A DNA stretch of 64,000 nt from Saccharothrix luteola (GTDB lineage: Bacteria > Actinomycetota > Actinomycetes > Mycobacteriales > Pseudonocardiaceae). Location of the stretch: the NCBI RefSeq assembly GCF_020859565.1, contig NZ_JAJHUO010000005.1, positions 39,621-103,620 on the forward strand, read 5' to 3'. The notes beneath the pieces are model-generated. The model was given only the letters and a program-made list of their open reading frames with translations. It was not told the DNA's origin and did no database searches. This document shows, piece after piece, positions 17,734 to 61,962 of the stretch (the stretch's first letter is position 1; the number at the start of each line of letters is the position of its first letter). Both the position numbers and the translations under genes were made by a program.

Positions 17734-19479
17734 TCAGCTGTAGAGCCCGTCGTACAGCGCGGCGTGCGTGGAGTGCACGACCTTCCGCTTCACCTTCAAC
17801 GTCGGGGTCAGCTCGCCCTCGTCCTGGCTCAGGTCGCGGTCCAGCACGGTGAAGCGCTTGATCTGCGAGACGTGCGCGAAGTGGGAGTTCGCCTCGTCCA
17901 CCACGCCCTGGATCAGGTCCCGCACCTCGGACGTGCGGGCCAGCGCGGGCAGGTCGGTCGGCAGACCCCGGGCCTTCGCCCACGGCACGATCTCGTCCAC
18001 GTCCAAGGTGATCAGCGCGACCAGGTACGGCTTGAGGTCCCCGTAGACCACCGCGTGCGAGATCCAGCGCGACTGGCGGAGCTGGTTCTCGACGTTCGCG
18101 GGCGCGATGTTCTTGCCGCCGGCGGTGATGATGATGTCCTTCTTGCGGCCCGTGATGGTGACGAAGCCGTCGTCGTCGACCTCGCCGAGGTCGCCGGTGT
18201 GCAGCCAGCCGTCGGTCAGCACTTCAGCGGTGGCGGCGGGGTTGTTCCAGTAGCCCGCGAACACGTGCGGTCCCTGCATCAGCAGCTCGCCGTCCTCGGC
18301 CACCTTGAGCTGCAGGCCCGCCATCCCGAACGTGCCGACCGAGCCGAGCTTGTGCCGCGCCAGCGTGTTCACCGTGCCGACACCCGTGGACTCGCTCATG
18401 CCGTACCCCTCCAGCACGGGCACGCCGGCGGCCGTGAAGAACTCCAGCACCTCCACCGAGATCGGCGCCGCGCCCGACAACGCCTGCCGCAGCCTGCCCC
18501 CGAAGATCGCCCGGACCTTGGCGAACACCGGGTCCACCTGCTCGAACGCGGCCGCCAGGTCGGGCGGCAACGGCCGGCCGGCGGCCTGCGCCCGGCGCAC
18601 CGCCAGCCCGACCTCCACCGCCTGCCGCAACCGCTCCGCCGGCACGCCGGCCGTGGCGGCGGTGTAGATCTTCTCGAAGATCCGGGGCACGGACGGCAGG
18701 AACGTCGGCCGCACCTGCGCCAGCTCCGCCACGACCTTCGACGTGTCGCCGCCGTAGAACGCGACCGCGTGGCCCGTGTAGAGCGCGCCCAGGTGCACGA
18801 TCTGCGCGAACACGTGCGCCAGCGGCAGGAACAGGTACGCCACGTCGTCGGGCAGGACGTACGACAGCTCCTCGCTGAGCCGGCACATCGTCAGCCAGTT
18901 CCGGTTGGTGAGCACGCAGCCCTTGGGCGGACCCGTGGTGCCCGAGGTGTAGATGATCACGGTCGGGTCGTCCGGGTCGATCGCCGCACGGCGGTCGTCC
19001 AGCTCGTCCGGCAACGGCGACGTGCGCCCCTGCGACCGCAGCTCGTCCAACCCGCCACCCTCGATCACGATCACGTCCCGCAACGAGGGCACCTGCTCGC
19101 GGATCGACTCGACCTTGTCCCGCTGCGCGTCGTCCTCCGCGATCACGAGCACCGCACCCGAGTCGCCGATGATCCACGCGCACTCCTCCGCCGCGCTCGA
19201 CGGGTAGATCGGCACCACGACACCACCCGCCGCGAGCACCGCCAGCTCCGCCGCCGACCACTCGACCCTGGTGTCCGCCAGCACGCACACCCGGTCCCCC
19301 GGCTCGACACCCAGGTGCACCAGCCCGGACGCCAGTTCCATGACCCACTCGGCGACCTCGGTGAACGTCAGGTCGTGCCACTGCCCGTCACGCGAGTGGC
19401 GCCACGCCACCCGGTCGTCGTGCGCCTGGGCGGCGGTGAAAGGCAGGTCGGCGATGACGCGTGCCGTGGTCGCGGGCAT
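17734..19479 (-). CDS. Long-chain fatty-acid--CoA ligase (AMP-forming)
   Basis: A 581-residue acyl-CoA synthetase of the ANL superfamily. The AMP-binding P-loop is IIYTSGTTGPPKG, followed by the A-motifs YGMSESTG and DGWLHTGDLGEVDDDGF, the hinge GRKKDIIITAGGKNIAP, and a C-terminal KVKRKVV with the catalytic lysine. It activates a carboxylic acid with ATP and CoA; length and layout suit long-chain fatty acids (FadD15-like). GAGGAG precedes the ATG. It starts eleven bases after the stop of the molybdopterin oxidoreductase, so the two form an operon. A second enzyme of this type is at 33849. Confidence 0.92.
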   Translation of the reverse strand: MPATTARVIADLPFTAAQAHDDRVAWRHSRDGQWHDLTFTEVAEWVMELASGLVHLGVEPGDRVCVLADTRVEWSAAELAVLAAGGVVVPIYPSSAAEECAWIIGDSGAVLVIAEDDAQRDKVESIREQVPSLRDVIVIEGGGLDELRSQGRTSPLPDELDDRRAAIDPDDPTVIIYTSGTTGPPKGCVLTNRNWLTMCRLSEELSYVLPDDVAYLFLPLAHVFAQIVHLGALYTGHAVAFYGGDTSKVVAELAQVRPTFLPSVPRIFEKIYTAATAGVPAERLRQAVEVGLAVRRAQAAGRPLPPDLAAAFEQVDPVFAKVRAIFGGRLRQALSGAAPISVEVLEFFTAAGVPVLEGYGMSESTGVGTVNTLARHKLGSVGTFGMAGLQLKVAEDGELLMQGPHVFAGYWNNPAATAEVLTDGWLHTGDLGEVDDDGFVTITGRKKDIIITAGGKNIAPANVENQLRQSRWISHAVVYGDLKPYLVALITLDVDEIVPWAKARGLPTDLPALARTSEVRDLIQGVVDEANSHFAHVSQIKRFTVLDRDLSQDEGELTPTLKVKRKVVHSTHAALYDGLYS

Positions 19480-33852: not shown

Positions 33853-35702
33853 CCGCGCCCCCCGGCGTACATGTCGTCGACGAGCTCGCCGAACACCTTG
33901 GCCAGTGCCGACCGCTTGACCTTCTGCGTCGCGGTCAGCTCACCGTCCTCGTGGTCGAGCTCCTTCGGCAGCATGCGGAACTTCTTGACCTGCTCCACGG
34001 TGGCGAACCGCCCGTTGACCTCGGTCACGATGCCCTGCACCAACTCGCGCACCTCGTCCTTCTCCGCGAGGTCGCGGTAGGTGGTGTAGGTGATCCGGCG
34101 TTGCCTGGCCCAGTGGCCGACGGTGTCGTACTCGATGCCGATCAGCGCCACCAGGTACGGGCGCCGGTCGCCGAGCACGATCGCCTCCTTGATGTACGGC
34201 GAGGACTTCAGCGCGTTCTCGACCTCCGACGGCGCCACGTTCTTGCCGCCCGCGGTGATGATGATGTCCTTCATCCGGTCGGTGATCCGCACGTGCTTGC
34301 CGTCGACCCACTCGCCGACGTCGCCGGTGCGCAGCCAGCCGTCCGGGGTCATCGCCCGCCGGGTGGCCTCCTCGTCGCGCCAGTAGCCGGCGAACACGCC
34401 CGCGTGCCTGGTCTGGATCTCGCCGTCGTCGGCGATCCGCAGCTCCACGCCGGGGTGCGGTTCGCCGACCGTGCCGAGCTTCACCCGGCCGGGCCGGTTG
34501 CCGGTGGCGACGGCGCTGTTCTCGGTCATCCCGTACACCTCGTGCATCGGCACGCCGATGCCCATGAAGAACCGCAGCACCTGCGGCGAGATGGGCGCGG
34601 CGCCCGACGCGGCGTACCGGACGTGCCGCAGCCCGATCCGCGCCTTCAACGCGCGGAAGCAGAACAGCCAGCCGATGCCGTACTTCAGCCGCGTGCCGAC
34701 GGTGTGCCTGCCGCCGTTGCGCACCAGGTGATCGCCGAGGCCGTCGGCCACGCGCAGCCAGAACCGGGTGGTCGCCCGCTTGAGCCAGGTGGCGCTGGAC
34801 GCGCTGATCGTGATGGCCGCCAACACCTTCTCCCAGATGCGGGGCACGCCGAACAGGATCGTCGGCTGCACCTCGCGCAGGTTCGCCTGCACCGTCTCGA
34901 TGGACTCGGCGAAGTGCACCTGCACCCCGGCCGACGCGCTGAACCACGTGGTGAAGATGCGTTCGGCGACGTGGCACAGCGGCAGGTAGGACAGCGTGAT
35001 GTCCTTCGGTGACGGCGGCGGTTCGGTGAACCCGCCGCCCTCGACCAGCGACTGGACGGCGAACTCGACGTTCGCCACGGTCAGCATCGCGCCCTTGGGC
35101 GGCCCGGTCGTGCCCGAGGTGTAGATCAACGTCATCACGTCGTCCGCCTCGACCTCGCGCATCCGGCGCGCGACCGCGTCCGGGTTCCGCTCCCGGTGCT
35201 CCGCGCCCATCGCCAGGAAGTCGTCCCACGACAGCAGCTTCGGGTTGTCGTAGCGGTGCCGGATGCCGCGCGGCTCGATGTACACGATGCGCTCCAGGTC
35301 GGGCAGGGCGTCCAGCACGGCCAGCGCCTTGTCCACCTGCTCCTGGTCCTCGGCGATGAGCACGCGGGTCGCGGAGTGCGACAGCAGGTACGCGACCTCG
35401 GCGGCCGGGTTCGTCGGGTACAGGCCCACGGTGACCGCCCGCACGGCCGCCGCGCCGATGTCGGTGTAGAGCCACTCGCGGCGGTTCTCCGAGTGGATCG
35501 CGACCCGGTCGCCCGCGTCGACGCCGAGCGCCAGCAGGGCGTGGCCGACCAGCTCGGCCTGCGCCCAGTACCGCGCCCAGCTCACCTCGCGCCAGATGCC
35601 GAAGTCCTTGGCCCGCAACGCCACCGCGTCCGGCGTGCGGGCGGCCCGGTCGCGGACGCGGGTCACGATGGTGGTGAGCCCGGTGGTGGTGGCCGTCGTC
35701 AT
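33849..35702 (-). CDS. AMP-forming acyl-CoA synthetase inside the ABC operon
   Basis: A 617-residue FadD15-like ANL enzyme. Motifs: LIYTSGTTGPPKG, VYGMTENSAV, DGWLRTGDVGEWVDGK, hinge DRMKDIIITAGGKNVAP, and C-terminal TQKVKRSALAKV with the catalytic lysine. It overlaps livG and livH by four bases each side. It probably traps the imported acid as a CoA ester inside the cell. A paralogue without transporter genes is at 17734. Confidence 0.93.
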   Translation of the reverse strand: MTTATTTGLTTIVTRVRDRAARTPDAVALRAKDFGIWREVSWARYWAQAELVGHALLALGVDAGDRVAIHSENRREWLYTDIGAAAVRAVTVGLYPTNPAAEVAYLLSHSATRVLIAEDQEQVDKALAVLDALPDLERIVYIEPRGIRHRYDNPKLLSWDDFLAMGAEHRERNPDAVARRMREVEADDVMTLIYTSGTTGPPKGAMLTVANVEFAVQSLVEGGGFTEPPPSPKDITLSYLPLCHVAERIFTTWFSASAGVQVHFAESIETVQANLREVQPTILFGVPRIWEKVLAAITISASSATWLKRATTRFWLRVADGLGDHLVRNGGRHTVGTRLKYGIGWLFCFRALKARIGLRHVRYAASGAAPISPQVLRFFMGIGVPMHEVYGMTENSAVATGNRPGRVKLGTVGEPHPGVELRIADDGEIQTRHAGVFAGYWRDEEATRRAMTPDGWLRTGDVGEWVDGKHVRITDRMKDIIITAGGKNVAPSEVENALKSSPYIKEAIVLGDRRPYLVALIGIEYDTVGHWARQRRITYTTYRDLAEKDEVRELVQGIVTEVNGRFATVEQVKKFRMLPKELDHEDGELTATQKVKRSALAKVFGELVDDMYAGGRG

Positions 35703-52013: not shown

Positions 52014-52610
52014 TCAGGCGAACGTCGGCTGCCGCATCGCGTGCTGCACCAGCGTGATCAACGTCTGCTTGGTCGACTGCCGGTTGCGCGCGTCGCAGGG
52101 CACGATCGGCACCGACTCGTCGATCGTCAGCGCCTCCCGGATGTCCTCGATGCGGTGGTGCAGCAGGCCGTCGAAGCAGTTCACGCCGATCACGTACGGC
52201 AGCTCGCGGTCCTCGAAGAAGTCGATGGAGGCGAACGCGTCCGCCAAGCGGCGGGTGTCGACCAGCACGACCGCGCCGATCGCGCCCTTCACCAGGTCGT
52301 CCCACATGAACCAGAACCGGTGCTGACCCGGTGTGCCGAACAGGTAGAGGATGAGGTCGCTGTCCAGCGACACCCGGCCGAAGTCCATGGCCACCGTGGT
52401 GGTCATCTTGTTGGGCGTGGCCGAGAGGTCGTCCACGCCGACGCTGGCCTCGGTCATCACCGCCTCGGTGGTCAGCGGCACGATTTCCGACACCGACCCG
52501 ACGAAGGTCGTCTTGCCGACACCGAACCCGCCGGCCACCACGATCTTCGTCGACGTGACGGTCAGGCTCGCCGCGGGTGACCCCGGCCGGTCGGGAGCGC
52601 CACCGCTCAT
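52014..52610 (-). CDS. Conservon small GTPase (CvnD-like)
   Basis: A 198-residue Ras-like GTPase of the actinobacterial conservon type. The P-loop is GGFGVGKTT (residues 27-35); switch regions include the Thr-rich MTTTVAMDFGRV and FGTPGQHRFWFMWDDL, with GVNCFDG in place of the NKxD motif. It acts with the roadblock protein and sensor kinase encoded upstream at the membrane face. A 47-base gap, not an overlap, separates it from the roadblock gene. The usual DUF742 gene between them is missing. Confidence 0.92.
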   Translation of the reverse strand: MSGGAPDRPGSPAASLTVTSTKIVVAGGFGVGKTTFVGSVSEIVPLTTEAVMTEASVGVDDLSATPNKMTTTVAMDFGRVSLDSDLILYLFGTPGQHRFWFMWDDLVKGAIGAVVLVDTRRLADAFASIDFFEDRELPYVIGVNCFDGLLHHRIEDIREALTIDESVPIVPCDARNRQSTKQTLITLVQHAMRQPTFA

Positions 52611-52657
52611 GTTGCTCTGCTTTCCCTAGTAGTAGGACCTCGCCGGGTGGTGGGACC

Positions 52658-53080
52658 TCAGCCGCGCATGGCGACGTGCAGCTGCGAGCGGATCTCCGGG
52701 GTGAGCTGGACGCCGACCCGCTCGACCAGCCGCGTCATCGCGTAGCCGATCAGGCCGATGTCGCAGTTCGGCGCCGCGAGCACGGCCAGGCACGAGCCGT
52801 CGCTGATGGACATCAGGAACAGGTAGCCCCGTTCCATCTCCACCACGGTCTGCTTGACGTCGCCCGCCTCGAAGCAGCGCGCCGCGCCGAGGTTCAGGCT
52901 GACCAGGCCCGACGCGACGGCCGCGAGCTGCTCGGCGCGGTCGATCGGCAACCGCTCCGAGGACGCGAGCAGCAGTCCGTCCGCGGAGACCACGATCGCG
53001 TGCGCGACGCCCGCGACCCGGGCGACGAAGTCATCGACCAGCCAACTGAAGTTTTCGAGTTCCTCGGTTGCGGTGGTCAC
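52658..53080 (-). CDS. Roadblock/LC7-domain protein (CvnB-like)
   Basis: A 140-residue roadblock/LC7 protein: [31 protein letters not shown], then [74 protein letters not shown] reads as the typical fold. GTG start overlaps the kinase stop by four bases, with AAGGAG upstream. It is thought to work as a regulator of the GTPase in conservons. Confidence 0.92.
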
Positions 53081-56000
53081 TTCTGCTCCTTGGTCTGATT
53101 CCCGCCGTTGGCGGGGGTGTTGTCGTCGAACGACACGCCGTCCCACGGCATGCCGGCGTCATCGCCCGCCTGACGGCCGAGTTGCACGCCTCGCTGGTAG
53201 GTGGCGAAGCGCTGGCGCAACCGGTCGGCGGACCTGCGCGGCGGCACGGCGGTCGCCACACCGGCCGACGAGGCGCCGTTCGCCGACGGCTGCGCCGCCG
53301 ACGGTGCCGGCGCCGAACCGCGCGAGGGCGCGGAGAGCGAACCCGGCATCAGGCGCGCCTTGGGCACGCGCTTGGGCAGGCCCGCGGTGGTCGTGTCGTC
53401 GACCGGCGCCTTGAGCGCGCTGGTCGCCAGCGTCCAGCTGTCGTCCGCCGCCGCGCCCCAGCCGGGTCCCGACGACGCGCCGGAGGACGGGATCGCCGAC
53501 GGCGCGGGCTCGCGCTTGGGCAGGCCCGCCGGGGTCGAGCCGCGCGGCTCGGGCGGCTTCGGCCTGCTCGTCGGCGCGGGCGGCGGGGTGATCAGGTCGG
53601 AGCGGTCGGTGTACGCGGTCTGCTCCGACGCCGTGCCGACGTGGCCGCCGTCCGTGCCCATCAGCTCGGCGCGGTCGGCGAACATCGTCCGCTCGGACGC
53701 GGTCTCCGGCGGCACGCCGGCCGCCGGGTGGTCGGCGACCTCGCCGCGCACCACGCCGCCCTCGGCCTCGCCGCCCTGGAACCAGCGCGACAGCACGTCC
53801 TCGTAGATCGGCAGCCGCTGGGTGGAGGCGTCGTCCTCCTCCCGCTCGACCTCCGCGACCGGCTCGGGCGCCAGGCGCCGGGGGGCCGACGGCGGGTACG
53901 AGTAGTCCGGCACCTCCTCGCCGGGCGGCGGCACGGTCTCCGTCACGGTGGCGGTGAACAGGTCGTCCACCGGGGTCTGCTCGACCTGGAAGTACTCGTT
54001 GGGCTCGGCCTCGTGCGTGTGCACGACCTGCGGTCCGGTCGAGGCGGGCAGTTCCAGCGGCGCGTAACCGCCGGGCGCGATCTCCGGCGTCCACTTGGGC
54101 ACGCCGGCCAGCACGCCGACGCCGCTCTCCTCCAGCTGCGGCGCGGCCTGGCGCTGCGGCAGCGCGGCGGGCGCCGGCCTGGGCGCGAGCGGCTCGGGAC
54201 CGCGGTGCAGCAGGTCCATCGGGAGCACGACCTGCGCCGTGACGCCACCCTCTATGTCGTCGTTGTTGCTCAACGTGACCCGGATGTTGTGCCGCTTGGC
54301 GAGCTGGCCGACCACGTACAGGCCCATCTCGCGGGCCACCGACACGTCGACCTCGGGCGGGTCGGCGAGCTTGGTGTTGGCCTCGACGACGTCCTGCTCC
54401 TGCATGCCGACGCCGCGGTCGTGGATGCGGATGGACACCTCGCCGCGCCGGGTCTCGATCGCCCGCACGGTGACCTTGGTGGTGGGCTTGGAGAACGCGG
54501 TCGCGTTGTCCAGCAGCTCGGCGATGAGGTGCGCGAGGTCGTTGACCACGCGGCCCTGCACCTTCAGCTCCGGCGCGGGCGCGATCTGGATCCGGGCGTA
54601 CTTCTCGACCTCGGACACCGCGGCGCCGAGCACCTCGGAGATCGGCACCGGCCGGGTGACGCGGCGGTTGACCGTGGTGCCGGAGAGCACCAGCAGGTTC
54701 TCGCTGTTGCGGCGCATCTGGGTGGCCAGGTGGTCCAGCTCGAACAGGCTGGCCAGCTGGTCGGGGTCCTGCTCGTCCTGCTCCAGCCGGTCGATGACGG
54801 TGATCTGCCGCTCGACCAGCGCCTGCGAGCGCCGGGACAGGTTGATGAACATGTCGTTGACGTTCGCGCGCAGCGCCACCTGCTCGACCGCGAGGCGGAC
54901 GGCTTCGCGCTGCACGGCGTCGAACGCCCGGGCCACCTGGCCGACCTCTTCGGTCGTGTTGATCGGCACGGGCACCAGCGCCTCTTCCGCGGCACGTGCC
55001 GGGTCGCGGTGCGTCCGGATCCGCTTGATCGCGTCCGGCAGGCGGTTGCGGGCCACGTCCAGCGCGGTGCGGCGCAGCACGCGCAGCGGCGTCAGCATCG
55101 AGCGGGCGACGAAGGCCATGAGGGCGAACGCGATCACCAGCGCGACGGCGACCAGCGCCGCGTCACGCCACGCGGACGCGCGGGCCGCCTCGGTCAGGTC
55201 GATCGAGGCCTGGTCGGCCTGCCGCTCCAGGTCCTGCGACACCTGCCGCAGCAGCGCCGCGGTCTCCTCGCCGACCGCCATGACGTCGCCGTCCGAAATG
55301 GACACCTCGCCGGCGTCGGCCTGCTGCACCAGCGCCAGCTGCACCAGGCTGTTGCGCGCGTCGACCGGCGTGCCGGTCACGGTGTCCGACAGCAGCTGGC
55401 GGTTCTCCTGGCTCGCGGTGACCGCGAAGTCGGTGAGCGCCGCGTCCAACCGGGACTGCGCGGCGCGCAGCGCGTTGGCCTGGCCGGGGGCGAACTCGCC
55501 GCGCTTGGCCGTCGACAGCAGGATCGAGTTCTGCTGCGTCAGCTGCTCCTTCGCGGAGTAGAGCGCGAGGTTGGCGCCGGCCAGCGGCGTGATCGTCTCG
55601 TTGCTCAGGCTGCTCGCGGTCGCGCGGTGCACCTGCGCCAGCGCGGCCAGCACCTGGCCGTAGGCGCTGTGCACCGAGATGTCGGGGTACTTGGTGGTGG
55701 TCACGGTGTTGCGCAGCGCGTTGAGGCCGTCCAGCGACTGCAACGACTTCTGGAACGCCTCGCGCACCGCGTCGTCGACACCGGTCGTGGAGGCCGCGAC
55801 GTCGCGCAGCCTGCGGACCTCGGTGTCGACCTTGCTCGAGCGCGTCTGGAACTCGGGGCCGTTCTCCTGGCGACCGCCCGCGACGAACCAGACCGCGGCG
55901 TCGCGCTCCAGCTGCAGGGCGTCGGACACCGCCGCCACCTGGGCGGACAGCTGGAGTTCCCGCTGGACCTGGCCGAACAGCTCCACGTCGTCCAGCTGGG

Positions 56001-56232
56001 TGTTCAGCCTCAGCCCGGCGAGGGTCAGCGTGCTCAGCGCGGGCACCAGGAGCACCACGGCCAGCTTGCTGCGCAAGCGCCAGTTCCGCAGCCGCCACCG
56101 GGACACTCCCCGGTCGCCGGGCACGGCGCCTGTGCTGGGCCCCGAGTCGGGTGGACCGCTTCCAGCGGCACCCGTGTCGAGTTGAATCCGCTCCGGATCT
56201 CTCCCGGAGGCGTGGTCGTCGTGACCGCGCAC
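53077..56232 (-). CDS. Conservon sensor histidine kinase (CvnA-like) with nitrate/nitrite-sensing-type domain
   Basis: A roughly 1050-residue membrane kinase. A first helix ([19 protein letters not shown]), a large extracellular helical sensor of the nitrate-sensing type, a second helix ([20 protein letters not shown]), HAMP, an atypical H-box ([20 protein letters not shown]), and an HATPase_c domain with LLDNATAFS and GVGM. The last 350 residues are low-complexity, with two TASExT-x2-DR motifs and two GLPKR motifs. No response regulator is encoded; conservons signal through the GTPase. Start: GTG at 56232 with GGGGAG upstream; alternatives lie 3-27 codons earlier. Confidence 0.9.
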
Positions 56233-56448
56233 CGTCAGCACACTCCCCAGCCCGGTGAAACGACACTTCCCTACAAACCCGGTGGATCTTGGTGGAAAAA
56301 ACCGCCGAGTCATACCGCCGTTCGGACGAGGTAGCCGGTAGTTTGCAAATCAACCATTGTCGCGCGGACCACACGTGGACGCGCTAAACGATCGCTAACC
56401 GGCGTTCATGGTTTTTTCACGCCCTCGACCCGAACGGGAAACACCCGA

Positions 56449-56480
56449 GGGGGAGCCCGGCCCCGACGACGGGCTCCCCC
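56449..56480. terminator. Terminator after the substrate-binding protein gene
   Basis: An 11-base perfect stem (GGGGGAGCCCG with its complement) and a ten-base loop, seven bases after the stop codon. Confidence 0.88.
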
Positions 56481-56486
56481 GTCGGG

Positions 56487-57512
56487 TCAGCTACCTGACG
56501 GGGCGACCAGCATCGGCTTGACGTCGAAGTCCTTCTCCAGCAAGCCGTAGGTTCGCATCAGACCCGCCACGCGCTGCAAGCGGGTGGCGTCCAGCGTGGT
56601 CGGGAACTCGCCGAAGTGCACGAGGCTGGCGGTTTCCTTGTCGACCTTCGCGTACTCGACCAGCAGCGGCTCGACCGTGGGGCGGTCCGCCGCGTCGCGC
56701 TGGCCCTTCGCCATCGCGCGCTGGAACGCGGCGACGGTGTTCGGGTTCTCCTTCACGAACTTGCCGGTCGTGGCGTAGCCCGCGATCGGGATGTCCGCGG
56801 TGGGGCCGGACGCCGCGTCGAGCACGGTGATCTGGCCGCTCGCGCGCTGGGCGCGGCTGATGAACGGCTCCACCATGAAGGCCGCGTCGACCGTGCCGTT
56901 CTGCACCGCCGCTTCCATGTCCGGGAACGGGAACTCCTTGAACGTCACCTTGGAGGGGTCGACGTCGTTGGCTTCCAGGGTCGCCTTCGCGGTCAGCTCG
57001 GCGATGTTCCGGAACGTGTTGATCGCGATGGTCTTGCCCTCGAGGTCCTTGGGCGACTTGATCGGCGAGTCGGCCTTCGCGAGGATCAGGAACATCTCCG
57101 GCTTGGCCTGGTAGCCGTCGCTGACCAGCTTGAGGCCGTCGACGGCCTTGGCCGCCTCCTTCGCCTCGGCACCGAAGAACGACACCCAGTTGCCGAAGGA
57201 GATGTCGAGCTCGCCGTTGATCAGGCCCGGGATGGCCGCGGCGCCACCCTGGATGATCTCGATCTTGACCTCGAGACCCTCCTCCTGGAAGTACTTCTTC
57301 TGGATCGCGACGTGGACCGACGCGACGTCGAGGATCGGGAGCAGGCCAAGGGTGATCTTGGCCTTTTCGACCTTGCCCGGTGCGGCGGCGGCGTCGGTGG
57401 GCTTCTCCTCGGAGCCACCGAGCAGACCGCAGCCGGAGACGACGGCGAGCATCGCGACCGCGGAGACAACGCCGAAGATCCTTCGTGCCGAGAGGCCGAC
57501 TCTTCGAGTCAT
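56487..57512 (-). CDS. ABC transporter substrate-binding lipoprotein, SsuA/TauA/NMT1-like
   Basis: A 341-residue lipoprotein with lipobox VSGC (C28). The mature part has the type 2 binding-protein pattern: ITLGLLPILDVASVHVAIQKKYFQEEGLEVKI, GGAAAIPGLINGELDISFGNWVSFF, and KSPKDLEGKTIAINTF. Family ligands include sulfonates, taurine, pyrimidine precursors and aromatic acids. Start: ATG at 57512 with GGAG nine bases away; an ATG three codons earlier is too close. The permease and ATPase genes lie 2 kb to the right beyond pobA, so the importer is split. A dyad shared with pobA suggests co-regulation. Confidence 0.88.
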   Translation of the reverse strand: MTRRVGLSARRIFGVVSAVAMLAVVSGCGLLGGSEEKPTDAAAAPGKVEKAKITLGLLPILDVASVHVAIQKKYFQEEGLEVKIEIIQGGAAAIPGLINGELDISFGNWVSFFGAEAKEAAKAVDGLKLVSDGYQAKPEMFLILAKADSPIKSPKDLEGKTIAINTFRNIAELTAKATLEANDVDPSKVTFKEFPFPDMEAAVQNGTVDAAFMVEPFISRAQRASGQITVLDAASGPTADIPIAGYATTGKFVKENPNTVAAFQRAMAKGQRDAADRPTVEPLLVEYAKVDKETASLVHFGEFPTTLDATRLQRVAGLMRTYGLLEKDFDVKPMLVAPSGS

Positions 57513-57578
57513 GGGGGGCATCTCCTGTTGGAGTGAAGACTTTGCGGGGGCAGGATGCACGAGCGACAGGGTGCTGCA

Positions 57579-57606
57579 GAACCACTCAAAGTGACACGAG
57601 TGGTTC
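57579..57606. promoter_or_regulatory. Candidate operator between the binding-protein gene and pobA
   Basis: A perfect nine-base dyad GAACCACTC/GAGTGGTTC with a ten-base spacer. It sits 67 bases before the binding-protein start and 91 bases before pobA, in the divergent promoter region of both. No regulator gene is next door. Confidence 0.65.
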
Positions 57607-57696
57607 GACAAGACCCCAGTCGACCGACACTCGAAGGCTGATCCACTACCTTCGGTGAGCATCTTTGCACAGGCTGTCCAGAGGTTGGGGTATGCG

Positions 57697-58902
57697 GTGA
57701 GCGATCTTGACGCGGAATGGGCCGTACAGAGCAACCGGCGCCCGGTGGGCATCGTCGGAGCGGGCCCTGCGGGATTGACCTTGGGGAACCTGCTCCGCGA
57801 GGCCGGAATCCCCTGCGTGGTGCTGGAAAAAGGCACCCGCGAGCACATCGAGACCCGGCCGCGCGCCGGGGTGTTGGAGCACCGCGCGGTGCAAATGTTG
57901 ACAGAGCACGGGCTCGCGGACCGGTTGCTCCAAGAGGCGGACAGGCATGGCGCGTGCGAATTCCGGGTGAACGGGGAAGCGCACGAGGTGGACTACGCCA
58001 CCCTGTACGACGGGCAGACCCACTACATCTACCCGCAGCAGGAGGTCGTCCAGGACCTCGTGCGGCACTACGTCGACGAGCGCGGCGGCGCGGTGCGGTG
58101 GTCGGTCACGGACGTCGAACTGCACGACATCGAGTCCGCCGAACCGGCTCTGACCTGGACGAACGCCGACGGCACCCGTGAGCGGCTCGACTGCTCGTTC
58201 ATCGCGGGCGCGGATGGGTTCCACGGCGTGACGAGGCGCAGCATCCCGGCGGGCGCGGTGCAGGAGTTCAGCCACCAGCACGGCATCGAGTGGCTGAGCA
58301 TCCTGGCCGAGGCGCCGCCGTCCACCCACAAGGTGATTTACGCACTTCACCCGGACGGATTCGCGGGTCATATGCTCCGCAGTTCGACGGTTTCGCGCTA
58401 CTACCTCCAGGTCCCGGTGGACGACACCGTGGACAACTGGCCGGACGAGCGCGTGTGGGCGGAGCTGCACAAGCGGTTGGCGCTCAGGGACTCCGACTGG
58501 AAGCTCACCGAGGGGCGCATCGTCGAGAAGCGGATCCTCGACATGCGCAGCCACGTGGTCGAACCAATGAACCACGGCAACCTGTACCTCCTCGGCGACG
58601 CCGCGCACATCATCACCCCGGTGGGGGCAAAGGGAATGAACCTCGCGTTGCACGACGCCGAGGTGCTCGCCGACGCCCTGGCGCGCTACCACCGAACGGG
58701 TGATGAGACGGGGTTGCGGAGCTACTCCGAGGTGTGCCTGCGACGCGTGTGGCGTGCGCAGGAGTTCTCGCAGTGGATGGTGTTCATGATCCACCGGTCG
58801 CCGGAGCCGTTCCTGAGCCGGTTGGGTCAAGCCAGACTCGAACACCTCATCGCCTCCGGGTCGTCGGCCGGCTATTTCGCCCAAAACTACGTGGGGCCCT
58901 AG
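57697..58902 (+). CDS. pobA: 4-hydroxybenzoate 3-monooxygenase
   Basis: A 401-residue FAD-dependent hydroxylase. The FAD site is GIVGAGPAGLTLG, followed by the family's RPRAGVLEHRAV (substrate and NADPH region), DGFHGVTRRSIP (the DG motif), and LGDAAHIITPVGAKGMNLALHDAEVLADAL. It converts 4-hydroxybenzoate to protocatechuate, feeding the beta-ketoadipate pathway. I chose the GTG at 57697; an earlier GTG at 57655 would add 14 residues, which most PobA proteins lack. No protocatechuate genes are in the window. Confidence 0.92.
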   Translation: MSDLDAEWAVQSNRRPVGIVGAGPAGLTLGNLLREAGIPCVVLEKGTREHIETRPRAGVLEHRAVQMLTEHGLADRLLQEADRHGACEFRVNGEAHEVDYATLYDGQTHYIYPQQEVVQDLVRHYVDERGGAVRWSVTDVELHDIESAEPALTWTNADGTRERLDCSFIAGADGFHGVTRRSIPAGAVQEFSHQHGIEWLSILAEAPPSTHKVIYALHPDGFAGHMLRSSTVSRYYLQVPVDDTVDNWPDERVWAELHKRLALRDSDWKLTEGRIVEKRILDMRSHVVEPMNHGNLYLLGDAAHIITPVGAKGMNLALHDAEVLADALARYHRTGDETGLRSYSEVCLRRVWRAQEFSQWMVFMIHRSPEPFLSRLGQARLEHLIASGSSAGYFAQNYVGP

Positions 58903-58970
58903 GCAGAACATCTTACGATTAGCGGGCCCCATTACCGGGGGAACACCCCGCAATGACACCGGAACACCGG

Positions 58971-59023
58971 CGCCTTGTTCTCCGCCACGGCATTCAGGCG
59001 TGCTCGACCCGGAGAACAAGGCG
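58971..59023. terminator. Hairpin downstream of pobA
   Basis: A 14-base perfect stem (58971-58984 with 59010-59023) and a 25-base loop, 68 bases after the pobA stop. Probable terminator. Confidence 0.65.
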
Positions 59024-59456
59024 ATGGCCCGATCGAATTACCGGCACATTCGAAGTGTCGTCACGCGCGGACATCCACGCGGACATCCACGACATCGGGT
59101 CGATGTATTCGCCGCCGATTCCACCCGCTGGACGCCCGGACGCACCCGACGACACCCCGTCGGTGACGCCCCAGGCGCGCGGAAATCATCGGCGGACAAT
59201 TCCGCGAGGCGGCCGGAAAAGCACTCGACGCGCACGGCGCGTGATCGCACGACGACGGCGCGGTGATCATCGCCGAAGGTCTTCCGCGGCGGGAAAGATG
59301 TCGAATCGTTGTGAACGATCGCCGTCGAAACCGCGCCCGGAAACCGCTGCCGGCGCGCCCGGACACGACAACGGGCGACCCACGGCGCCGGCGCCCCTGA
59401 GGGGGCCGACAAGCCGCGGATCGCCCGTCGGGCGTCCTGGGCCTAGGAAAGGCCGG
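59024..59456. other. Intergenic region between pobA and the ABC operon end
   Basis: No gene is supported. It has a short direct repeat (CGCGGACATCCA twice at about 59076-59099), AT-richer patches and, at 59373-59426, a 14-base stem with two mismatches that probably ends the ABC operon transcript. Confidence 0.5.
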
Positions 59457-60338
59457 TCACGTCGTGGCGCGCTCCTCGGCCTCGGCGCGCGAGACCTCCG
59501 CCCGCTCCGCCTCGGCCCACTTCGCCGCCTGCTCCTCGTTCGCCTTGCGCCGCGCCTTGACCTCCTCGGAGGTCTTGCCGACGTTCAGCAGCCGCGCCAC
59601 CTCGGCCCGCAGCGCGACGAACGCCTCGGACTCGCGGGTGGTGATCTGGTCGCGCTCGGCGGGCAGGTCGACCTTCAGGTCCGCCACCACGGACGCGGGC
59701 GACGTGGAGAGCACGAGGATCCGGTCTCCCAGGTAGACGCTCTCGTCGATGTCGTGCGTCACCACGAGGACCGTGGTGTCCTGCTCGGTGCGGACCTTCA
59801 GCAGCAGGTCCTCCAGCTCGAACCGGGTCTGCGCGTCCACCGAGGCGAACGGCTCGTCCATCAGCAGCAGCGCGGGCCGGTAGGCCAGCGCCCTGGCGAT
59901 GGCGACGCGCTGCTGCATGCCGCCGGACAGCTGCCACGGGTACTTGCGGCCGGCCGCCGACAGGCCGACCCACTCCAGCGCCTCGGCCGCGCGCGTGCGG
60001 CGCTCGGCGCGGCCCAGGGTGCGGCGCAGCGGGAACTCGACGTTCTTCTGCACCGTCAGCCAGGGGAACAGCGAGCGGCTGTAGTCCTGGAACACCACGG
60101 CGAGGTCGTCGGGCACGCCGCGGACCTCGTTGCCGTGCAGGCTGATCTCGCCGCGGGTGGGGCGGATCAGCCCGGAGATGGTGCGCAGCAGCGTGGACTT
60201 GCCGCAGCCGGACGGGCCGACGACGCAGACCAACTCGCCGGTGCCGACGGTGAACGACAGGTCGGCGATCGCGGTGTGCGCGCCGTCCTTCGCCTGGTAG
60301 GTGTGGCCGAGGTCGGCCACTTCGAGCATCGCGGTCAT
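59457..60338 (-). CDS. ABC transporter ATP-binding protein, SsuB/TauB type
   Basis: A 293-residue ATPase. Walker A GPSGCGKSTLL, Q-loop VVFQDYSRSLFPW, signature LSGGMQQRVAIARAL, Walker B ALLLMDEPFASVDA, H-loop VVTHDIDESV. The ATG overlaps the permease stop by four bases and has GGAGG upstream. A charged C-terminal tail of about 40 residues (KARRKANEEQAAKWAEAERAEV) may form a coiled coil and is unusual for the family. It powers the importer with the two permeases and the binding protein at 56487. Confidence 0.92.
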   Translation of the reverse strand: MTAMLEVADLGHTYQAKDGAHTAIADLSFTVGTGELVCVVGPSGCGKSTLLRTISGLIRPTRGEISLHGNEVRGVPDDLAVVFQDYSRSLFPWLTVQKNVEFPLRRTLGRAERRTRAAEALEWVGLSAAGRKYPWQLSGGMQQRVAIARALAYRPALLLMDEPFASVDAQTRFELEDLLLKVRTEQDTTVLVVTHDIDESVYLGDRILVLSTSPASVVADLKVDLPAERDQITTRESEAFVALRAEVARLLNVGKTSEEVKARRKANEEQAAKWAEAERAEVSRAEAEERATT

Positions 60339-61141
60339 ACTGCTTTTTCCTCCACCGTCGCGGGGGTGCGCTCCTGCTTCGGTTGCCACGCAAGGGCTTT
60401 GCGCTCGAAGCCGAGGAGCACGGTGTTGAGGGCATAGCCGAGGACACCCAGCAGGATGATCCCGGCCCACATGTCGGGGAAGTCGAACTCCCGCTGTGCG
60501 ACGAGGAGTTGCGACCCGATCCCGTTGTCGGTTCCGACGAGTTCGGACACGACCATGAGCACCAGCGACAGCGACAGGGAGACCCGCAGCCCGGCGAAGA
60601 TCTTCGGCGCCGCGGAGGGCAGGACGACACCGAGGATCCACTGTGGCTTGGGGATGCGGAACACCGCCGAGGTCTCGAACTTCGTGGCGTCGACGGAACG
60701 GGCGCCGTCGATGCTGTTGAGCAGGATGGGCCACAGCACGCCGAAGACGATCGTGGCGAGCTGCATGGTGGTGCCGACGCTGAACAAGAGCAGGAACACC
60801 GGCACCAGCAGGGGCGGCGGGATCGAGCGCATGAACGTCAGCAGGGGCCCGGCGTACTCCGCGGCCTTCTCCGAGCGGCCGAGCGCCACGCCGAGCGAGA
60901 CGCCGACGACGGCCGCGATGCCCCAGCCGGCGAGCAGCCGGCCGATGCTCGGGAACACGTGGTCGAACACCGTGTCGGTCAGGAACAGGTCATCGGCCGG
61001 GCCGGAGAACCACAGGTCGTGCGCGGCCACGGCGATCTCGGTGGGGCGGGGGAAGAACGTGTCGTCGGCGTACCAGGTGAGCAGTTCCCAGACCACGACG
61101 AGGCCCGCGAACACCGCCCACCGCTGCAGGAATCGACTCAC
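60335..61141 (-). CDS. ABC transporter permease, SsuC/TauC type (second)
   Basis: A 268-residue inner-membrane permease with six helices and the coupling EAA-like segment GARSVDATKFETSAVFRIPKPQWILGVVLPSAAPKIFAGLRVSLSLS. It overlaps both neighbours by four bases (GTGA at the start, ATGA at the end). Two permease genes instead of one suggest a heterodimeric channel. Confidence 0.92.
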   Translation of the reverse strand: MSRFLQRWAVFAGLVVVWELLTWYADDTFFPRPTEIAVAAHDLWFSGPADDLFLTDTVFDHVFPSIGRLLAGWGIAAVVGVSLGVALGRSEKAAEYAGPLLTFMRSIPPPLLVPVFLLLFSVGTTMQLATIVFGVLWPILLNSIDGARSVDATKFETSAVFRIPKPQWILGVVLPSAAPKIFAGLRVSLSLSLVLMVVSELVGTDNGIGSQLLVAQREFDFPDMWAGIILLGVLGYALNTVLLGFERKALAWQPKQERTPATVEEKAV

Positions 61142-61905
61142 GACCGACCTCCGGTGACCGCGCTCCAGCCGACCCAGCGGCGCTGCGCGCGTTCCAGCCC
61201 TTCGTTGAGCAGGTAGCCGATGACGCCCGCGACCACCGTGCCGGCCAGGACGATGTCCATCCGCCCCGCGCCGCTGCGCGCGATCGCGATGTACTGCCCG
61301 ATGCCGCCGGACCCGCCTTCCAGCAGCTCCACGCTGACGACCACGACCAGGCTCGTCGTGGCGGCGAGCCGGATTCCGGTCAGCACGAACGGCAGGGCGC
61401 TGGGCAGGGCGACCGACGCCAGCACGCGCACCCGGCCGGAGCCGAACGCCCGCGCGGTCTCGACCAGCAGGGGGTCGAGCTCGTCGAGCGCGTAGATGGT
61501 GTTGAACAGGATGGGCCAGATCGCCGCGTACACGGCGAGGGTGATCTTGGTTTCCGGTCCGATGCCGAGCAGCAGCACCGCCAGCGGGATCAGCGCCACC
61601 GACGGGATGGGGCGCAGGAACTCGACGACGGCGCGGGTCGCGTGCCGGACGGGCGCCACGCTGCCCAGGACGAGGCCGAGCGGGACGGCGATCCCGACCG
61701 ACAGCGCCACGGCGATGAGCACGGCGAGGACCGTCGCGATGACGTCCCGCAGGAAAGCCTCATCCCCCAACAACTTCACGAGTTCCACCGCTACGACGGA
61801 CGGCGGTGGCAGGTACTCCGAGGGAACCAGCCGGAACCGGCCGAACAGCTCCCAGATGACGAGGAACCCGGCCACACCGAGCAGTCCTCGGGTGAGCGCA
61901 CGCAC
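61138..61905 (-). CDS. ABC transporter permease, SsuC/TauC type (first)
   Basis: A 255-residue permease, paralogous to the next one: PLLVETARAFGSGRVRVLASVALPSALPFVLTGIRLAATTS is its coupling segment. First gene of the operon. Start: GTG at 61905 has AGAGG eight bases upstream; a TTG two codons earlier is too close to that site. A ten-base palindrome GTTGATCAAC at 61925-61934 lies in the promoter region and may be an operator. Confidence 0.9.
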   Translation of the reverse strand: MRALTRGLLGVAGFLVIWELFGRFRLVPSEYLPPPSVVAVELVKLLGDEAFLRDVIATVLAVLIAVALSVGIAVPLGLVLGSVAPVRHATRAVVEFLRPIPSVALIPLAVLLLGIGPETKITLAVYAAIWPILFNTIYALDELDPLLVETARAFGSGRVRVLASVALPSALPFVLTGIRLAATTSLVVVVSVELLEGGSGGIGQYIAIARSGAGRMDIVLAGTVVAGVIGYLLNEGLERAQRRWVGWSAVTGGRS

Positions 61906-61962
61906 GCGCAAACGCCTCTTCCCAGTTGATCAACCCCAGCCAACCCGGCTCAATCTAGAGAG

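Follow-up and report, generated by a model that had tools for sequence, protein, structure and literature searches.

The 64,000-nucleotide stretch of the Saccharothrix luteola genome analysed here (contig NZ_JAJHUO010000005.1, positions 39,621 to 103,620; hereafter the window) contains an ATP-binding cassette (ABC) importer whose genes are split around pobA, a gene encoding a PobA-like hydroxylase. The binding-protein gene lies on one side of pobA and the genes for the ATPase and two permeases lie on the other, all on the opposite strand. Coordinates, strands and Pfam matches agree with this five-gene layout, which a first-pass annotation had described. Overall, the locus joins a conserved importer of ordinary fold to a divergent PobA-like enzyme and to a signalling operon. 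The linkage is genuine, as is the split, but the assignment to 4-hydroxybenzoate is doubtful, and the clues for other ligands are few. The changed pocket of the enzyme and the adjoining signalling operon hint that these soil actinobacteria probably import a different compound. The five genes are as follows.

56487..57512, minus strand: substrate-binding lipoprotein, NMT1/SsuA-like (NitT/TauT class), 341 amino acids (Pfam NMT1, 7e-28)
57697..58902, plus strand (open reading frame opens at 57655): PobA-like group A FAD monooxygenase with Met212 (Pfam FAD_binding_3)
59457..60338, minus strand: ABC importer ATPase (Pfam ABC_tran)
60335..61141, minus strand: ABC importer permease 1 (Pfam BPD_transp_1)
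61138..61911, minus strand: ABC importer permease 2 (Pfam BPD_transp_1)

The binding-protein gene also adjoins three genes for a NIT kinase, a roadblock protein and a GTPase that were absent from the earlier annotation; the kinase gene begins 173 bp beyond it.

53077..56313, minus strand: conservon-type sensor kinase (CvnA type) with a NIT sensor domain (Pfam NIT, 1.3e-31; HATPase_c)
52658..53146, minus strand: roadblock/LC7 protein (CvnB type; domain match)
52014..52610, minus strand: small GTPase-like protein (assigned to the CvnD type by analogy; Pfam ATP_bind_1)

This arrangement is genuine, and its conservation is strong. Regions surrounding a homologue of PobA or of the binding protein were taken from family- and order-level genomes, and genes in these relatives were called by a simple GC-position script and partly read by eye. 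Kinase, binding protein, pobA (opposite strand), ATPase and the two permeases follow one another in 24 of 24 other Saccharothrix genomes (genus label g1), in the eight Lentzea loci examined, from a list of 24 g8 genomes, and in four of four Umezawaea loci (3/3 in g22, 1/1 in g32). One Lentzea slice stops before the second permease, and at one Lentzea locus the ATPase match is in two pieces. A homologue of the kinase occupies the same place throughout (24/24, 8/8, 3/3 and 1/1), and pobA sits in the gap in each of the 36 close relatives that were examined.

By their domain content, the four transporter genes appear to make up one NitT/TauT-type ABC importer, comprising an NMT1-family lipoprotein (lipobox Cys28 is invariant in a 24-row alignment), two BPD_transp_1 permeases and an ABC ATPase. 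The binding protein scores below the curated cut-offs for SsuA_fam (TIGR01728; 100.7 versus 163.5 bits) and TauA (TIGR01729; 46.9 versus 304.25). Its structural model (predicted local distance difference test score 87) has SsuA as the best fold match (2x26_A, Z 29.5, root-mean-square deviation 2.7 over 281 residues), followed at Z of about 24-27 by NrtA/CmpA, ThiY, PqqT, TauA and Thi5. The modelled protein is about 13-19% identical to the matched structures, and these fold matches do not name a ligand. The sulfonate cargo that the first-pass annotation had allowed for is left with family resemblance alone, the SsuA and TauA models lying far below their cut-offs.

The enzyme encoded by pobA is a group A flavoprotein, 44% identical to the Pseudomonas fluorescens enzyme over 382 positions. 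We compared its active site across a close group of 41 rows (40 genomes, including the window enzyme itself) at least 62% identical to it. Tyr201, Arg214, Pro293, Asn300 and Tyr385 are invariant in this group, so that the phenol-side residues Tyr201, Pro293 and Tyr385 are retained in every row. The carboxylate side is altered. Of the set formed by Ser/Thr212, Arg214 and Tyr222, the carboxylate ligand Ser212 is replaced by methionine in 41/41 rows, and Tyr222 is present in 39, with phenylalanine in the remaining two (L073 and L135, from one genome). Pro292 is replaced by threonine in all 41, and Thr294 by valine (38) or methionine (3). In bona fide enzymes, position 212 is Ser in 97% and Thr in 3% of cases, according to the portion of PMC6315137 available, and the available portion of PMC10770758 reports that the S212A variant of XaPobA has little activity. 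Among 16 more distant rows, position 212 is Ser in seven, Met in seven and Leu in two; in a 28-row tree the seven Ser212 rows are split from all others with support of 100/100. The window enzyme thus lacks one defining feature of a 4-hydroxybenzoate hydroxylase, though it may act in the same way on a related acid.

The earlier suggestion that the locus imports and hydroxylates 4-hydroxybenzoate would require that Met212 be tolerated. Arg214, Tyr222, Tyr201, Pro293 and Tyr385 are all kept in the window enzyme, which also passes the PRK08243 subfamily model (507 bits against a cut-off of 351). Furthermore, in the related genus g17, three loci join importer genes to a PobA homologue, which is canonical in the one locus whose residues were read (L071, Ser212). 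An orphan paralogue of the binding protein (L069) adjoins an IclR-family regulator and a major facilitator superfamily (MFS) protein; the top NCBIfam hit of the latter is the aromatic acid/H+ symport family, below cut-off (277.7 versus 418.55). However, such neighbours occur at just one of two orphan paralogues examined, and Ser212 is lost throughout the close group. The enzyme also misses the TIGR02360 equivalog (396.7 versus 538.7), although the canonical PobA of the same genome misses it too (460.6). This canonical enzyme is encoded elsewhere (C4:74334-75497), with an MFS transporter gene about 1.1 kb away, and carries Ser212, Arg214, Tyr222, Tyr201, Pro293 and Tyr385. Two candidate frames for a PobR beside it have no Pfam match, so no regulator is claimed there. 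Since a PcaH match in the genome passes its cut-off, protocatechuate could be used. With Met212 at this locus and a canonical PobA near an MFS gene elsewhere, 4-hydroxybenzoate as the specific cargo and substrate is not supported, and we regard this explanation as unlikely. A curated subfamily model still names this altered-pocket group 4-hydroxybenzoate 3-monooxygenase, so that annotations based on it may give the wrong substrate.

Two Leu212 PobA-family proteins lie in apparent ring-degradation clusters (L127, 5720-10332; L130, 4951-9449) and share a neighbour that has no Pfam or NCBIfam match and is NicX-like by eye only.

Several associations in relatives bear on a cargo of another kind, an N-heterocyclic acid or purine-like compound, with the enzyme hydroxylating a hydroxypyridine-type ring. 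The Leu212 relatives in L127 and L130 adjoin weak matches to biuret amidohydrolase/nicotinamidase, all below cut-off; an alpha/beta hydrolase is found in L130, and the NicX-like protein lies near both enzymes. In Solihabitans fulvus (L186, 3-1774) the importer is flanked by a molybdenum-hydroxylase-type [2Fe-2S] protein and XdhC. Another binding-protein homologue (L144, 1498-6540) lies beside genes for PucR, uricase, 5-hydroxyisourate hydrolase (HIUase) and 2-oxo-4-hydroxy-4-carboxy-5-ureidoimidazoline (OHCU) decarboxylase, and L146 resembles this locus by eye. The L144 cluster also holds a molybdopterin dehydrogenase FAD subunit. Moreover, the fold neighbours of the binding protein include proteins that bind N-formyl-4-amino-5-aminomethyl-2-methylpyrimidine (FAMP), thiamin and pyrroloquinoline quinone (PQQ). 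Against this, the NicX-like proteins match neither Pfam nor NCBIfam, and the associations are few, with none in Saccharothrix. The accessible portions of PMC9838390 and PMC9304392 provided leads on pyridine hydroxylases and no direct support for any reading. We consider this narrower version of the explanation favoured below to be doubtful.

Ten further loci, from nine genomes, have other layouts. The three g17 loci, from one genus, carry kinase, binding protein, PobA, ATPase, two permeases and an additional binding protein, all on one strand; their importer set is a related one, with parts 29-57% identical. In three loci (L074, L147 and L148) an intact operon of ATPase, two permeases and binding protein is followed by pobA, a second binding protein and then the kinase; L072 has an operon binding protein plus a further one that lies opposite pobA. 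One of the ten carries two importer sets, and three, from two genomes, have the binding protein and pobA only. In L073 (5571-7961) the binding protein is followed by a pyridoxal-dependent decarboxylase gene, with no permeases. At the orphan paralogues L069 and L070, importer and pobA are both absent. A further 15 loci have more distant binding proteins and lack pobA. In five of them (L150-L153, L155) an intact operon diverges from the kinase, and L154 has the same arrangement with two binding proteins; the rest comprise one binding protein with a kinase only, one whose accompanying ATPase match is weak (39%), and seven orphan binding proteins.

Because an intact importer can stand beside a homologous kinase without pobA, pobA does not define the importer's cargo. 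These six of 15 loci are consistent with pobA being a passenger beside an importer that works for the conservon or for general nutrition (nitrate, sulfonate or a thiamine precursor), and the fold alone would fit binders of any of these nutrients. On the other hand, pobA stays in the gap in 36/36 close relatives with a conserved stretch upstream, and the three g17 loci likewise pair the importer with a PobA homologue. We judge the passenger explanation quite improbable. The g17 pairing, with canonical Ser212 in L071, favours an aromatic-acid cargo. Of the uptake system tied to the hydroxylase that was originally envisaged, one importer with a linked hydroxylase is kept across Saccharothrix, Lentzea and Umezawaea, while 4-hydroxybenzoate as its specific cargo is not upheld.

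The pairing with the kinase extends beyond this locus. In the same genome, two of four distinct NIT kinases adjoin a binding protein of the window's subfamily, one in the window and one on contig C13. The latter protein (C13:76389-78755; L159, L203) is NMT1-type, 35% identical and encoded divergently from its NIT kinase. Across six genomes, a binding protein of the subfamily was found near 9 of 25 NIT-kinase loci (8 of 24 without a duplicate contig), counting a flank of about 1.5 kb; the survey was neither blind nor complete, as four of the five added genomes were chosen with binding-protein loci already seen. These counts also fit an importer that serves the conservon. One lipoprotein subfamily is thus found repeatedly beside NIT-type conservon kinases. 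In a speculative and rather unlikely model, the binding protein is a two-way receptor that loads the importer and presents the same compound to the adjoining kinase. If so, the pairing would name a ligand class for this kind of bacterial G-protein signalling operon, and the ABC operon would stay split for the reason that its binding protein is as much a part of the sensor as of the importer. To our knowledge, the ligands of NIT-type conservon signalling operons are largely untested.

The gap between the binding-protein start and the GTG at 57697 spans 184 bp. It holds the following features, listed together with an inverted repeat at the other end of the binding-protein gene.

57579..57606, no strand: dyad of the first-pass annotation, GAACCACTC-N10-GAGTGGTTC (sequence match)
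57632..57654, no strand: second inverted repeat, CGAAGG-N11-CCTTCG, candidate operator or leader (conservation in homologous gaps)
57607..57690, plus strand: conserved stretch 5' of the likely pobA start (gap alignment)
56450..56481, no strand: GC-rich inverted repeat just past the binding-protein stop, possible T-less terminator (inverted-repeat list)

The perfect dyad between the binding-protein and pobA starts, proposed earlier as a shared element, is the sole match in the window at up to three mismatches. A perfect 9-bp inverted repeat with a spacer of 3-12 bases arose in 16 of 2000 first-order shuffles of the gap, so the dyad is more than local chance there; across the window as a whole, repeats of this type are no rarity (24 registers versus a mean of 13.4 in 10 shuffles). 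In 35 aligned homologous gaps the dyad is perfect in five, with mean identity to the window of 92% for the left arm and 75% for the right. Since its arms are not conserved, a role as a shared operator is unsupported. Motifs for the sites of IclR-family regulators are given in PMC8222616. The second repeat lies directly 5' of the position 57655 at which pobA had been assumed to start. It is perfect in 27 of the 35 gaps, a count that includes some Lentzea rows with a two-sided change to CGCAGG/CCTGCG; one pair changes from A-T to C-G on both sides in five distinct rows. A one-base offset in the alignment partly accounts for the low scores of L066 and L068 at this repeat. The surrounding stretch (57607-57690) matches the window at 90-100% identity in 21 Saccharothrix rows, 79% in L066/L068 and 75-83% in seven Lentzea rows. 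In all seven Lentzea rows a stop lies two codons past the GTG at 57655, making the GTG at 57697 the more likely conserved start of pobA.

Pair counts over 33 distinct gaps give partial support to both repeats. In the dyad, two-sided changes affect two pairs (3 cells), and just 77.4% of cells are paired; in the second repeat they affect one pair (5 cells), and 97.5% of cells are paired. While the joint covariation score exceeded that of all 500 shuffles (0.103 versus 0.067), the number of two-sided pairs did not stand out (167/500 as high). As RNA, the dyad folds well (z -3.55). A structured RNA in the conserved upstream stretch was considered and rejected, as it folds no better than shuffles (z 0.40) and has no Rfam match at E up to 5; the single Rfam match listed is a sub-threshold microRNA model at 59971-60021. 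Neither a sigma-70 promoter consensus nor a T-run terminator was found near the gap. Both repeat patterns occur at zero mismatches at this locus and its duplicate contig alone, and a regulon scan of the assembly at one mismatch gave no further site for either, the remaining hits having 2-3 mismatches. We treat the conserved stretch as a putative operator or leader of unassigned kind; with its 57632-57654 repeat it is a more likely operator candidate than the dyad.

The one other exact copy of the dyad in the assembly is on contig C39, which copies about 66 kb of the window's contig (C45) at 99.8-100% identity in the compared stretches; this repetition is likely assembly redundancy, or else a very recent duplication. 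The listed contamination of the assembly is 8.84. Within the window, two stretches of about 400 bp (18085-18478 and 34215-34608) are 73% alike.

Building on the observed gene order, its conservation, the residue changes and the intermediate layouts, we infer a cargo, a reaction, an order of events and a mode of regulation. In the model we tentatively favour, at somewhat short of even confidence, the NitT/TauT-type importer most likely captures an aromatic or heteroaromatic acid close to, yet not identical with, 4-hydroxybenzoate, and the PobA-like enzyme, whose gene is read from the same gap, would hydroxylate this acid within the cell. The arrangement would have been built stepwise. An intact operon of binding protein, two permeases and ATPase may have stood beside the conservon; another binding-protein gene would then have entered between the two along with a pobA-like gene; and finally the operon's own binding-protein gene would have been lost in Saccharothrix, Lentzea and Umezawaea, from which the split probably followed. 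The divergent gap probably co-regulates the binding protein and pobA, more likely through the 57632-57654 stretch than through the 57579-57606 dyad.

Several points weigh against this model. The 13 close rows in the 28-row tree do not form one resolved clade and need two changes, and Met212 recurs in 7 of the 16 more distant rows. The related genus g17 has a canonical PobA in the equivalent place (one locus read), which favours 4-hydroxybenzoate. In addition, what the importer carries may differ from what the hydroxylase acts on, and the order of losses was read from extant layouts with no reconciled gene tree.

No paper on this locus was found in the open PMC literature. Known systems offer the following comparisons. 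The window enzyme is like p-hydroxybenzoate 3-monooxygenase (PobA/PHBH) in sequence family and in most catalytic residues, but differs in having Met212, Thr292 and Val294 in place of Ser, Pro and Thr, and falls outside the Ser212 group of the tree. PHBH diversity is reportedly covered in a 2021 review by Westphal. In the available portion of Katsuki et al. 2023, PobA clades A-H include divergent uncharacterised PobA-like clades, with Actinomycetota in clade E (PMC10770758). Clade F, as described there, keeps Ser212 and changes Tyr201 and Tyr385 (PMC10770758); the window enzyme does the reverse. The importer shares its Pfam families and fold with NitT/TauT systems of the SsuA/TauA/ThiY/NrtA type, but its binding protein, unlike SsuA and TauA, lies below the curated cut-offs and at about 13-19% identity to the structures. 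In Ruminiclostridium cellulolyticum, CuaD has been described as a second binding protein that acts in signalling, as far as the accessible text shows (PMC10384115). CuaD, however, belongs to a cellobiose/cellulose system. Its partner signalling proteins are said to be an ordinary two-component pair and not a conservon. As in the Streptomyces conservons (cvn) described in the available portions of PMC13343842 and PMC8510531, a NIT kinase, a roadblock protein and a GTPase are encoded in a row. While A-, B- and D-type proteins are present here, the search for CvnC, limited to the interval 52610-52658, found no room for a separate CvnC gene; in contrast to those conservons, the neighbour is an ABC binding protein.

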